From Amycolatopsis azurea DSM 43854 (GTDB taxonomy: Bacteria > Actinomycetota > Actinomycetes > Mycobacteriales > Pseudonocardiaceae): a stretch of DNA of 64,000 nucleotides. The translations under genes were made by a program, and so were the position numbers. Below are positions 36,717-56,804 of the stretch, piece after piece (the stretch's first letter is position 1; every line of letters starts with the position of its first letter). The notes under the pieces are model-generated. The model was given only the letters and a program-made list of their open reading frames with translations, had not been told where the DNA came from and ran no database searches. Location of the stretch: contig NZ_MUXN01000005.1 of the NCBI RefSeq assembly GCF_001995215.1, positions 1 through 64,000 of the forward strand. Reading direction: 5' to 3'.

Positions 36717-36944
36717 GTGGAGGATTTGGGACGGTGAACGTCCTGGATCCTCCACGCTCGGTCTCGTTGATGAGGGATTCGCGACGCTGAACGCCCTAAA
36801 TCCTTCATCAACGGGGGAGGATTCCGGCCGTTGAACGTCCGGAATCCTCCCCCGTGACGTCGTCTGCCACCGGTCGTGACCGGCGCGATCTTGATCAACG
36901 GAGGATCGGGGACGTGGAGTGTCCCGGATCCTCCGTTGATCAAG
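36717..36944 (+). repeat. Array of four related hairpins (family 4)
   Basis: Hairpins at 36717-36755, 36766-36812, 36811-36855 and 36890-36944 have arms of 17-25 bp sharing the core GGAGGAT ... GGACG. The loops are GTGAA, CTGAA, TTGAA and TGGAG. They fill the 340-bp spacer between the converging YczE and Clp_N genes. Arm mismatches range from one (third) to five (second). This is not a CRISPR: units are inverted and there are no unique spacers. Confidence 0.88.
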
Positions 36945-37013
36945 CTCCGAAGCTGGGCGACACCGAGCGACGATGCGGGAGTGACGAACCCCCACCATCC
37001 CGCGGTCCGACGG

Positions 37014-37750: not shown

Positions 37751-37793
37751 GTCAACCTACGTTGACATCTCGCCCGCGTCAACCTCAGTTGAC
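37751..37793. promoter_or_regulatory. Paired operators GTCAAC-N4-GTTGAC
   Basis: Two 16-bp palindromes at 37751-37766 and 37778-37793, 27 bp centre to centre, occupy the whole 61-bp divergent gap between the HTH gene and the PP2C-like gene. The same half-sites recur at 56760-56804 beside the fused ClpC2-like gene. Confidence 0.75.
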
Positions 37794-37808: not shown

Positions 37809-38582
37809 ATGGTCGAAATCGCAGTGGCGGAAAGGGACGGAGTAGGCGCGGACGGAGCATCGCGCCCGACCGAAGACCACGTCGCCGTACTCGGCAACGC
37901 CGTGGTGGTGCTCGACGGGGCGACCGCGCCGCGACCGGATCTGCCGTCCGGCGGCTGGTACGCGAGCCTGCTCGTGCGCAGCCTGTCGCGGGCGCTGACC
38001 GCGGAACCCGAGGCGGATCTCGCGGTCCTGCTGGCCGGGTCGATCGCCGACGTCGCGGGTCGTGAAGGTCTCGAACCGGGACGATCACCGTCGAGCACGG
38101 TCGCGATCGCGCGCTGGACAGACGACACCGTCGACGCGCTGGTGCTCGCCGACAGTCCCATCATCGCCTTCGGCCCCTCCGGCGCGGACCCGCTTACGGA
38201 CGACAGGCTGGTTTCGCTCCGTGACAGCGGGCAGCTTCGCACAGGGGCCGACGTCCGCGCGAAACGCAACGCGCCGGACGGCTTCTGGGTCGCCGAAGCG
38301 GAACCGAAGGCGGCCGACGAGGCCGTCCGCCGCAGCTGGCCGCGTTCGGAGGTCGAAGCCCTGCTGCTGGCGACGGACGGGGTCGCGATCGGGGTCGACG
38401 AGTACGGCCTGTTCGGCTGGCCGGAGGTGCTCGCCCTCAGCCGCGAGCGTGGTCCGGACGCGGTCCTCGACGCGGTGCGCACGGCGGAGAAACAGGACCC
38501 GGACGGCGCCCGCTGGCCCCGCGCGAAAAGGCACGATGACCAGCTACTGGTACTGGTCGAGCTAGGGGTAGCCCCAGGGTAG
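37809..38582 (+). CDS. PP2C-like serine/threonine phosphatase domain protein
   Basis: This 257-residue protein resembles PPM/PP2C phosphatases: TEDHVAVLGNAVVVLDGATAP (metal-binding Asp plus Gly), SSTVAIARWTDDTVDALVLADSPIIAF and LLLATDGVAIGVDEYGLF with the DG motif. The usual first metal motif is shortened, so activity is uncertain. The divergent HTH gene and the paired operators 16 bp upstream suggest it is regulated by the HTH/Clp_N pair. Confidence 0.78.
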   Translation: MVEIAVAERDGVGADGASRPTEDHVAVLGNAVVVLDGATAPRPDLPSGGWYASLLVRSLSRALTAEPEADLAVLLAGSIADVAGREGLEPGRSPSSTVAIARWTDDTVDALVLADSPIIAFGPSGADPLTDDRLVSLRDSGQLRTGADVRAKRNAPDGFWVAEAEPKAADEAVRRSWPRSEVEALLLATDGVAIGVDEYGLFGWPEVLALSRERGPDAVLDAVRTAEKQDPDGARWPRAKRHDDQLLVLVELGVAPG

Positions 38583-53402: not shown

Positions 53403-54842
53403 ATGAGCAAGAAGGCGAGCATCGGGGTCACCGGCCTGGCGGTCATGGGCCGCAACCTGGCCAGGAACCTGGCGAGGCACGGGCACACGGTGGCCCTGCA
53501 CAACCGCTCCGAGCAGCGGACGAAGGAACTGGTCGAGCAGTTCGGCGACGAAGGCGACTTCATCCCGGCGTATTCGGCGCAGGAGTTCATCGACGCGCTG
53601 GAGCGGCCGCGCCAGGTCGTGATCATGGTCAAGGCCGGTGCGCCGACGGACGCCGTGATCGACGAGTTCGTCCCGCTGCTGGAGAAGGGCGACGTGATCG
53701 TCGACGCGGGCAACGCGCACTTCGCGGACACCCGGCGCCGCGAGGCCGCGCTGCGCGAGAAGGGCATCCACTTCGTCGGCACCGGGGTGTCCGGCGGCGA
53801 GGAGGGCGCGCTGCACGGGCCGAGCATCATGCCGGGCGGCTCCAAGGAGTCGTACGAGTCGCTCGGGCCCCTGTTCGAGGACATCTCGGCGAAGGTCGAC
53901 GGCGAACCGTGCTGCACGCACGTGGGCGCGGACGGCGCCGGGCATTTCGTGAAGATGGTGCACAACGGCATCGAGTACGCCGACATGCAGTTGATCGCCG
54001 AATCGTTCGACCTGCTGCGCGGCGCGGGCGGCTACTCCCCCGCCGAGATCGCCGGCATCTTCCAGAACTGGAACTCCGGACGGCTGGACTCGTACCTGAT
54101 CGAGATCACCTCGCAGGTGCTGGCCCACACCGACGCCGCTTCCGGCAAGCCGTTCGTCGACATCGTGGCGGACCAGGCGGAGCAGAAGGGCACCGGCCGC
54201 TGGACCGTCCAAATCGGACTGGACCTGGGGGTGCCGATCAGCGGGATCGCCGAAGCCGTCTTCGCGCGTTCGCTGTCCGGTTCGTCGAACCTGCGTGAGG
54301 CCTCACGCGGTCTCGGTGGTCCTTCGCGCGCTCCGCTCACCGGGTCCGCTTTGGACACCTTCGCGGACGACGTGGAGCAGGCGCTGTACGCGTCGAAGGT
54401 GGTGGCGTACGCCCAGGGCTTCAACCAGATCCAGGCGGGCGGCGCCGAATACGGCTGGGACATCGACCTCGGCAAGGTCGCGTCCATCTGGCGCGGCGGC
54501 TGCATCATCCGCGCGAAGTTCCTGAACGACATCACGGCCGCGTACGCCGACGAGCCCGCCCTGCCGACGCTCCTGACTTCCGGCGGCTTCCGCAAGGCCG
54601 TCGAAGACGCCCAGGACTCCTGGCGTTCGGTGATCTCCACCGCGGTGCGGCTCGGCATCCCGACCCCGGGCTTCTCGACCGCGCTGGCCTACTACGACGG
54701 CCTGCGCGCCGAGCGGCTCCCCGCCGCGCTGGTGCAGGGGCAGCGTGACTACTTCGGTGCCCACACGTACCGCCGGGTCGACCGGGAAGGTTCGTTTCAC
54801 ACCGCTTGGGCGGCCGACGGCCGTCCCGAGTCCTCCGCCTGA
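53403..54842 (+). CDS. gnd: 6-Phosphogluconate dehydrogenase, decarboxylating
   Basis: This oxidative pentose-phosphate enzyme converts 6-phosphogluconate to ribulose 5-phosphate with NADP+. The 479-residue protein starts at ATG 53403, with an AGGG 6 bp before. It has NADP motif GLAVMGRNLARNLARHG, catalytic Lys and Asn in GHFVKMVHNGIEYADMQ, VSGGEEGALHGPSIMPGG and a C-terminal FHTAWAADGRPESS. The length is that of the long form of the enzyme. It ends next to a tripartite hairpin. Confidence 0.95.
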   Translation: MSKKASIGVTGLAVMGRNLARNLARHGHTVALHNRSEQRTKELVEQFGDEGDFIPAYSAQEFIDALERPRQVVIMVKAGAPTDAVIDEFVPLLEKGDVIVDAGNAHFADTRRREAALREKGIHFVGTGVSGGEEGALHGPSIMPGGSKESYESLGPLFEDISAKVDGEPCCTHVGADGAGHFVKMVHNGIEYADMQLIAESFDLLRGAGGYSPAEIAGIFQNWNSGRLDSYLIEITSQVLAHTDAASGKPFVDIVADQAEQKGTGRWTVQIGLDLGVPISGIAEAVFARSLSGSSNLREASRGLGGPSRAPLTGSALDTFADDVEQALYASKVVAYAQGFNQIQAGGAEYGWDIDLGKVASIWRGGCIIRAKFLNDITAAYADEPALPTLLTSGGFRKAVEDAQDSWRSVISTAVRLGIPTPGFSTALAYYDGLRAERLPAALVQGQRDYFGAHTYRRVDREGSFHTAWAADGRPESSA

Positions 54843-54845
54843 GAG

Positions 54846-54922
54846 CTGAAGGGGACTTTCCCCGCATAAGACGCAACGAAGGGGCCCTTCACCGCATGGC
54901 ATGCGGTGAAGGGCCCCTTCGT
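54846..54922. repeat. Tripartite hairpin repeat (family 3, copy 3)
   Basis: The leading unit is 54848-54867, followed by unit 2 at 54878-54897 (GAAGGGGCCCTTCACCGCAT) and its perfect inverted copy at 54901-54920. It fills the space between the converging gnd and Vsr-like genes and is the most perfect of the four copies. Confidence 0.92.
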
Positions 54923-55881
54923 CAACTTGCGATCCGAACGTTCGGCCGGGTCCGAGCCGCGGCCGCGGCATGTGCGGCCCGCAGCTCTTCGACCACCTTG
55001 TCCGGCTCTGTCCGCAGCCTCGACGGCAAGGTCTGGAGCACCAAGACGCCGGCCGCCGCGTATCGCCCGTTCCTTGCCAAGGTCCGGTCGAATCCGTTCA
55101 CGACCTGGAGATGGAACGACAGTGAGTCGACCTCCCACGCCAGCCCGACATCGTCGAACCAGGCGTCCGGTTTCGCCACGAACCGTCCCTCCTCGTCGTA
55201 CAGCTTCTTGTTCCACATCGGTTCCGGGAGTCCGGAACGCGCCCAAACCCGCCGGGCATCGATCTCCGCGATCGACTCTTGCCCGGAAGCCAGCTCCGTG
55301 AGCACCAGCCGGGGCACCGCGCTACCGCGCTGACTGCCATGGGCCAGTTCGCGGGACAACCGCTCGAACGAGCTGTACCTGCGCTGAACCGCTTCGCTCA
55401 TAAGAGCCCGCACAGGCCTGACCTCGGTCTGTCTGCGACAGACGTCGAGAGTCGCACGAGTGACCTCCGCCAGCGGCCGTCCATCTCGGCGCACCGTTCG
55501 GGGCATCCGTTGTGTCCGCTCGACGACCACGAAGCCGTAGTTGTGGAGCTTCCGTTCGTGCGGCACGAGCAGATGGATCTCTTCGCCGGTGTCGGGCGCA
55601 TTACGCAGGCCGTGGATCCGGCAAGCCTCACCGCCGGTGAGCAGCGCGGTCTCGCCGCCGTACAACATCGCCGCGGCGATCTGTTGCTCGCGGGTGGGCG
55701 GTCCGTTGAAGAGGAGGACGATGCCCGGCAAGAGTCTCGTCCATGGGCCGCTGGGTCCGCATCTTCGATAGGTCGTGGTCGAAGAGACGCCCATTTCTTG
55801 AAGGCGCATCGCGCGGATGACGCCGTGGTCGCTGGTCTCCATCAGGAGTTCGGGGTCGTCGCCCCATGATCCTTTTTTCAT
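54922..55881 (-). CDS. AbiEi/Vsr-like endonuclease-fold protein
   Basis: The 319-residue protein starts at ATG 55881. A longer frame to 56010 reads into the hairpin repeat and is rejected. The N-terminal half is winged-helix-like (GVSSTTTYRRCGPSGPWTRLLPGIVLLFNGPPT), as in AbiEi antitoxin-type proteins. The C-terminal half has a Vsr/DUF559-like fold (KPDAWFDDVGLAWEVDSLSFHLQ ... RNGRYAAAGVLVLQTLP). PD-(D/E)xK-type Asp and Glu are visible, but function and partner toxin are not. It is an isolated gene. Confidence 0.72.
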   Translation of the reverse strand: MKKGSWGDDPELLMETSDHGVIRAMRLQEMGVSSTTTYRRCGPSGPWTRLLPGIVLLFNGPPTREQQIAAAMLYGGETALLTGGEACRIHGLRNAPDTGEEIHLLVPHERKLHNYGFVVVERTQRMPRTVRRDGRPLAEVTRATLDVCRRQTEVRPVRALMSEAVQRRYSSFERLSRELAHGSQRGSAVPRLVLTELASGQESIAEIDARRVWARSGLPEPMWNKKLYDEEGRFVAKPDAWFDDVGLAWEVDSLSFHLQVVNGFDRTLARNGRYAAAGVLVLQTLPSRLRTEPDKVVEELRAAHAAAAARTRPNVRIAS

Positions 55882-55933: not shown

Positions 55934-55960
55934 TGTGGACAACCGGGGTGTTGTGGATAA
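55934..55960. other. DnaA-box-like pair (3)
   Basis: TGTGGACAA (55934-55942) and TGTGGATAA (55952-55960) lie in the same orientation, 18 bp apart, upstream of the Vsr-like gene and adjacent to a hairpin repeat. Confidence 0.5.
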
Positions 55961-55963
55961 CCG

Positions 55964-56040
55964 CTGAAGGGGACTTTCCCCACATCCCATGAGACGAAAG
56001 CGTCCTTCACCGCGTCGCATGCGGTGAAGGGCCCCTTCAG
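55964..56040. repeat. Tripartite hairpin repeat (family 3, copy 4)
   Basis: The leading unit is 55966-55985, unit 2 is 55996-56015 (diverged) and the inverted unit is 56019-56038. Its right end (CTTCAG, read CTGAAG on the other strand) supplies the TGA stop of the ClpC2-like gene at 56037-56039. Confidence 0.85.
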
Positions 56041-56756
56041 CCCTCCCTGGTCGCTACGATCTCCTCTAGAGCCCCCAAGATCGCCGCCTCGGTCTTCTCT
56101 TTCGTAAGACCGAGCTCGATGAGCAAACCACTCTCGAGTTCGAACAGGGCCAGCAGGATGTGCTCGGTGCCGATGTAGTTGTGCCCGAGCCGCAGCGACT
56201 CCCGCATCGTCAGCTCGAGCGCCTTCTTGGCCTGCGCCCCGAAGGCCATCTTCGCCGCTTCCGCCGGTTCGTCGGCGGGTTCCGGTAGTGCCGCCGTCGC
56301 GGCCTCGCGGACGGCTTCGAGGGTCACCTTCTGCGCCACGATCGCCCCGGCGGCGAGCGCCGCGGGTTCGGCGAGCAGGCCGAGGACCAGGTGCACGGGC
56401 TCGATCTGCGGACTCTTCGCCGTCACGGCCGCGTCCCGCGCAGCGACGACGACGTGCCGCGCGCGATCGGTGTAGCGGCTGAACACCTTCACCAGGTCTT
56501 CGAGCGAAGAGCCGCTGGATTCGACGAAGCGTTTCTGGGCGGCCTGCTTGGACACACCCATGTTCTTGCCGATTTCGGTCCAGGAGGCGCCGGAACGCCG
56601 CGCCTGGTCGACGAAGTGGCCGATCAGATGGTCGGCCACTTCGCCGAGGTGCTCGCCGAGGAAGACCGCGTCGGACAGCTGGCCGAGCACGTCGCCGTCG
56701 GGATGCTGTTGCTTGATGTGGGAGATGAGGTCGTCGAGCCGGACTGGATTCGCCAT
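56037..56756 (-). CDS. ClpC2-like regulator: HTH fused to Clp_N domain
   Basis: The 239-residue protein starts at ATG 56756. The N-terminal ~85 residues hold a helix-turn-helix (ASWTEIGKNMGVSKQAAQKRF). The rest is a double Clp_N domain (about 95-239: FSRYTDRARHVVVAARDAA ... AKKALELTMRESLRLGHNYIGTEHILLALFE) without any AAA+ ATPase. This is the architecture of mycobacterial ClpC2 (Rv2667). I recall that ClpC2 binds ClpC1-targeting antibiotics and regulates its own gene. Paired GTCAAC-N5-GTTGAC operators lie directly upstream. A split paralogue is at 37014-37747. Confidence 0.88.
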   Translation of the reverse strand: MANPVRLDDLISHIKQQHPDGDVLGQLSDAVFLGEHLGEVADHLIGHFVDQARRSGASWTEIGKNMGVSKQAAQKRFVESSGSSLEDLVKVFSRYTDRARHVVVAARDAAVTAKSPQIEPVHLVLGLLAEPAALAAGAIVAQKVTLEAVREAATAALPEPADEPAEAAKMAFGAQAKKALELTMRESLRLGHNYIGTEHILLALFELESGLLIELGLTKEKTEAAILGALEEIVATREG

Positions 56757-56759
56757 ACC

Positions 56760-56804
56760 GTCAACTTTAGGTTGACGATCTTCAATCGTCAACCACGGGT
56801 TGAC
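56760..56804. promoter_or_regulatory. Paired operators GTCAAC-N5-GTTGAC
   Basis: Two 17-bp palindromes at 56760-56776 and 56788-56804, 28 bp centre to centre, lie 4-48 bp upstream of the ClpC2-like gene. The second overlaps the end of the flavoprotein gene. The half-sites match those at 37751-37793. Confidence 0.75.

Follow-up and report, generated by a model that had tools for sequence, protein, structure and literature searches.

A clpC2 orthologue and a split HTH/Clp_N locus of Amycolatopsis azurea with differently spaced operators, and an N-terminal helix-turn-helix as their most likely reader

When the first 64,000 nucleotides of contig NZ_MUXN01000005.1 of Amycolatopsis azurea DSM 43854 (the window) were analyzed, two loci pairing a helix-turn-helix (HTH) with a Clp_N domain were observed (Table 1). 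The first is a fused gene behind two palindromes, 18 kb from the split locus, as the original prediction had described it. With its start codon, an ATG, at 56756, the gene makes up only part of the interval 56037-56804 reported earlier; the rest holds its operators. In the second locus the two domains are separate ORFs, and the stop codon of the HTH gene overlaps the start of the Clp_N ORF (TGATG). Pfam assigned Clp_N to each of the two Clp proteins and gave HTH-type matches for the 69-aa protein, whose AlphaFold model has the same helix arrangement as the HTH of the fused protein. Intergenic segments at 36741-36950, 54840-55000 and 55940-56040 of the window are repeated, have phrases like GAACGTCC..GGATCCTCC and GGTGAAGGGCCCCTTC in common, and are possibly repeat elements.

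Table 1 Features of the fused and split loci (window positions) and of ClpX-zinc-finger–HTH genes (positions within the named loci)
Feature	Position	Strand	Basis or detail
Fused HTH-ClpN gene, ClpC2 orthologue, 239 aa	56037..56756	-	Clp_N E 6e-16; ClpC2 C-domain structures; 8ADA
HTH, residues 59-77	56526..56582	-	AlphaFold model, mean pLDDT 92.6, helices 59-66 and 70-77
Recognition helix, residues 70-77 (KQAAQKRF)	56526-56549	-	AlphaFold model
ClpC1-N-domain-like ligand domain, residues 91-233, cyclomarin-site Phe pair retained	56058..56486	-	Structure matches, homologue alignment
Fused-gene promoter: -35 TTGACG (56787-56792), 17-bp spacer, -10 TAAAGT (56764-56769)	56764..56792	-	Consensus scan
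Fused-gene proximal operator GTCAACTTTAGGTTGAC, GTCAAC-n5-GTTGAC, 3 bp ahead of start codon	56760..56776	.	Motif scan
Fused-gene distal operator GTCAACCACGGGTTGAC, GTCAAC-n5-GTTGAC	56788..56804	.	Motif scan
Split locus, Clp_N protein, 174 aa	37014..37538	-	Pfam Clp_N
Split locus, stand-alone HTH protein, 69 aa	37538..37747	-	AlphaFold helices 48-55 and 59-66, pLDDT 93.7
Split-locus proximal operator GTCAACCTACGTTGAC, GTCAAC-n4-GTTGAC	37751..37766	.	Motif scan
Split-locus distal operator GTCAACCTCAGTTGAC, GTCAAC-n4-GTTGAC	37778..37793	.	Motif scan
Divergent PP2C-like phosphatase gene beside split locus	37809..38582	+	PP2C_2, E 3e-5
ClpX C4 zinc finger fused to same HTH, 110 aa, same genome	L008:1516-1848, G000:C54	-	PF06689, E 1e-15
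Nonomuraea ClpX-zinc-finger–HTH	L412:1201-1527		Tandem GTCAGG-n5 operators
Streptomyces ClpX-zinc-finger–HTH	L413:1201-1530		Tandem GTCAGG-n5 operators

Residues 2-68 of the fused protein match 8ADA, the N-domain of Mycobacterium tuberculosis ClpC2, with an E-value of 6.6e-27, over the region corresponding to ClpC2 residues 4-72. Its C-terminus is a ClpC1-N-like domain without an AAA+ module, the chain stopping at 239 aa. In this protein and 41 fused relatives, the cyclomarin-contact residues F96 (F/Y in 42/42), F172 (F in 42/42) and E181 (E in 42/42) are kept, and Q71, A72, Q74 and R76 of the recognition helix are invariant across 40 homologues. The two operators are perfect palindromes with a five-base spacer (n5) and a 28-bp period. 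The promoter, a 9/12 match and the one found by the consensus scan against 0.0 expected, lies exactly across both of them, with -35 in the distal and -10 in the proximal operator; the transcript is predicted to be leaderless.

The mycobacterial clpC2 operator is CGTCAAC-n5-GTTGACG, often doubled and covering -35 and -10, and its transcripts were suggested to be leaderless (Taylor et al. 2023, PMC10030653). Repression, ligand release and sponge function of ClpC2 are known from mycobacteria. The double n5 operator of the fused gene is therefore already published for ClpC2. The gene also resembles mycobacterial ClpC2 (Rv2667) in domain order and in the cyclomarin-site phenylalanines. Because N-domain, C-domain, operator and promoter all fit mycobacterial clpC2, the fused locus is of a known kind and is, judged by its sequence, an ordinary ClpC2 orthologue. 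The ClpC2-like autoregulator proposed earlier thus gains support from the 8ADA match, the ClpC2 C-domain structures, the double operator and the promoter geometry.

The operators of the split locus have a four-base spacer (n4) and a 27-bp period. On the HTH-gene strand of both loci, the distal operator has a -35 TTGAC as its right half-site, and the proximal one has a -10 TAnnnT at its centre. The consensus scan gave no split-locus promoter at threshold, and thus the promoter geometry of this locus rests on conservation. Among relatives the operator period is mostly 27-28 bp for n4 and 28-29 bp for n5, and either way the promoter spacer is 17-18 bp. A one-base shift in both spacer and period leaves the -35/-10 spacing within this range, and the near-equal period of the two loci is imposed by the promoter.

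Four perfect n4/n5 sites were found in the window against 0.10 expected from shuffles. The whole 9.2 Mb genome contains two perfect n4 and two perfect n5 sites, all at the fused and split promoters, and no site of a reversed-pattern control (expectation 0.2-0.4 per spacing). Since perfect sites occur at these two promoters only, the objection that the motif is common genome-wide fails. When up to two mismatches were allowed, 136 n4 and 610 n5 sites per strand were found, vs 76 and 186 for the reversed control. A wider regulon around n4/n5 sites was dropped, as these matches are mostly background and no further tandem pair was found among the matches listed. In the family, 359/390 genomes carry n4/n5 sites, mostly 2-6 each vs 0-1 in the control. 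Lone n5 sites, as at L016 and L023 among the relatives, resembled chance and were rejected.

The spacer divides the loci of the relatives into two classes. Within the family, tandem n5 sites were found at 41/41 fused loci (n4 at 0) and tandem n4 sites at 130/132 split loci (n5 at 0). Class-wide, fused loci have 94 n5 sites and no other spacer, and split or stand-alone HTHs have 502 n4 sites vs 2 n5; the loci counted in these operator comparisons and in the helix comparisons below are non-independent. The division also holds within genomes carrying both genes, and the bases flanking the operators differ between the classes (T..A/G vs C..G). The operator searches fixed the TCA/TGA core, and HTHs with other operator cores would therefore be missed. 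In L402, behind three tandem n5 operators, the clpC2 frame breaks inside the HTH, possibly through a frameshift or an assembly error. At L033 and L138/L019, n4 operators precede what seem to be decayed HTH genes.

Both loci had been suggested to share one operator type and, with each paralogue binding the operators of the other, to form a single cross-regulated mini-regulon. The identical GTCAAC/GTTGAC half-sites agree with this, and in 18/21 same-contig cases in Amycolatopsis the two loci share a strand at a distance of 13-19 kb. However, the difference in spacer is conserved, and spacer and flanking bases separate the two classes at the loci examined. In addition, the linkage is absent in other genera, the split locus of G133, a genome that yielded no fused gene at the cut-off, keeps n4, and where other genomes carry two split paralogues, their half-sites differ. 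We consider cross-regulation unlikely; the fused and split genes look like two insulated autorepressors acting as parallel switches.

The split locus was not classed as ClpC2, as its HTH and Clp_N are two ORFs and its operators are n4, yet it would work like ClpC2, and its HTH and Clp_N probably contact each other. In the case of RelS-RelI, a RelS-type toxin gene beside the HTH gene would be expected, and the neighbor here is Clp_N. The antitoxin RelI (Rv2664; structure 9SDC) has a related HTH module, and its authors remarked on the likeness to the HTH region of ClpC2; unlike ClpC2 and the split HTH, its partner is a RelE-type toxin and no such operator was reported (PMC13284704). A Foldseek search with the split HTH model gave no confident match (best E about 1); the matches listed did not include 8ADA or 9SDC, an absence that carries no information. 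The best structural neighbors are Fis-type and other small HTH dimers (Z 5.4, rmsd 4.7, 62 aligned), and at this low Z and 11 % identity we claim a shared arrangement only and no family. M. smegmatis has a second small protein of the ClpC1-N-domain type, ClpC3 (cited in PMC10864484; MSMEG_3761 in PMC10454040), and it binds the same peptides.

The split form is common in Streptomyces and relatives. Its HTH shares 91-100 % identity between Amycolatopsis and Streptomyces and the partner Clp_N mostly 40-60 % (mean pairwise identity 0.89 vs 0.49). A phosphatase had been proposed as the target of the split paralogue. Both the split locus and the divergent PP2C-like gene exist, and the gene could be regulated here; however, at the loci seen this neighbor is confined to Pseudonocardiaceae. 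PP2C as a general target was rejected for Streptomyces, where it is missing at the split loci and 47 of them share an upstream quinone-oxidoreductase-like gene.

The palindrome was present at 267/293 HTH loci, and two residues of the recognition helix covary with its half-site. In the numbering of the split HTH, A at residue 61 goes with GTCAA and S/T with GTCAG, while at residue 64 K/R goes with C, E with G and A/T with T as half-site base 6, Q being mixed. With proteins clustered at 75 % identity, residue 61 agreed with operator base 5 in 26/27 and 8/9 clusters (Fisher p 2.6e-6), and p was 0.007 for residue 64 and base 6. In the fused family, base 6 is C in 303/304 half-sites with K75 and in 24/42 with Q75. 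About seven genomes have two split paralogues with different half-sites, each matching the prediction from its own helix. The rule also fits four proteins outside its derivation, namely the same-genome ClpX-zinc-finger–HTH protein, its Nonomuraea and Streptomyces relatives, and an HTH protein of a Streptomyces plasmid (n4). In a tree test of independent changes 91/96 and 90/96 rows agreed, at low power, with just 1-2 contrasts on well-supported branches. L137, L328 and the HTHs adjoining MoxR genes (GTCATC or GTCACC on one side) are exceptions. Further HTH classes, whose second code residue is R or A, have GTCAGC or GTCAGT operators and matching helices (L229, L310, L331, L343, L354; L326, L329, L338).

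Because this rule fits, including the four outside proteins, we concluded that the operator is most likely read by the N-terminal HTH rather than by the published C-terminal domain. Taylor et al. (2023, PMC10030653) solved residues 4-72 and 94-252 of ClpC2 and proposed R185 and R189 of the C-domain as the DNA reader; R185A/R189A lowered DNA binding and raised expression about 2-fold, and both arginines are retained in the fused homologues. However, R57A in the N-domain derepressed more strongly (4.6-fold) in the same study, and ClpC1, whose surface is similarly charged, shows little sequence specificity in its binding. The solved N-domain ends immediately ahead of the recognition helix, since its residue 72 aligns with residue 68 here. 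R189 is kept in 12/133 split Clp_N proteins with the half-site unchanged, and the operator-HTH covariation persists without an adjacent Clp_N gene or with a ClpX zinc finger partner. A C-domain reader is thus very improbable, but the C-domain may contribute to DNA binding, as R185A/R189A weakens it. It is scarcely credible that the palindromes merely form a strong promoter under conservation or serve a regulator other than the adjacent HTH proteins: -35 and -10 do sit within them, but promoter needs leave the palindromy, the n4/n5 classes and the helix covariation unexplained, and ClpC2 binding to this operator was demonstrated in mycobacteria.

We therefore regard it as highly probable, from comparison of sequences, that the fused gene is a clpC2 autorepressor and decoy whose N-terminal HTH reads the n5 operators, and that the split locus is a parallel n4 switch insulated by its spacer. 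ClpC2 would act as a dimer, its HTH (residues 59-77) binding both operators of its own leaderless promoter. As these hold -35 and -10, bound ClpC2 would exclude RNA polymerase. The C-terminal domain, which copies the docking domain of ClpC1, would sense agents or substrates that bind ClpC1; ligand binding would free the DNA, and the protein would build up as a sponge. The split pair would follow the same scheme with two polypeptides and n4 operators. By analogy, the repression, ligand release and sponge action of mycobacteria probably hold in this host too.

The same genome also encodes a ClpX zinc finger fused to this HTH, with the helix RQSAWER and tandem GTCAGG-n5-CCTGAC operators at a 28-bp period; it is a putative ClpX counterpart of ClpC2. 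The Streptomyces relative (L413) is plasmid-borne, and the annotation of a nearby gene is fic-family toxin component. At L129, L348 and L360 the HTH adjoins a MoxR AAA ATPase gene in place of Clp_N, and the outer half-site of the n4 operators deviates (GTCATC/GTCACC). In related genera, MoxR genes (L015, L018, L021, L053) and alpha/beta hydrolase genes (L014, L017, L020) have n4 operators with no HTH adjoining. Tentatively, one HTH module may have been joined, by fusion or as an operon partner, to docking domains of varied unfolding/AAA+ machines (ClpC N-domain, ClpX zinc finger, MoxR). The result could be a family of sensor-decoys that repress themselves. Each would guard a single machine, and a code of two half-site bases, set by two helix residues, and a spacer of 4 or 5 would keep them separate. 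Neither the split form nor the ClpX-zinc-finger–HTH regulator was described in the open-access literature searched, and both may be new to the literature.

The covariation of helix residues with half-site bases is new here; together with the strict separation of n4 from n5 loci, the wide occurrence of the split form and the putative ClpX counterpart, it is the valuable outcome. ClpC2 blunts antibiotics and targeted degraders acting on ClpC1, and how a ligand can free ClpC2 from DNA depends on which of its domains reads the operator. If our reading is true, the published ClpC2 model points to the wrong domain. With the helix-operator code, operators could be predicted for uncharacterised regulators of actinomycetes in their hundreds, and the ligand of the ClpX counterpart could mark ClpX-directed natural products.
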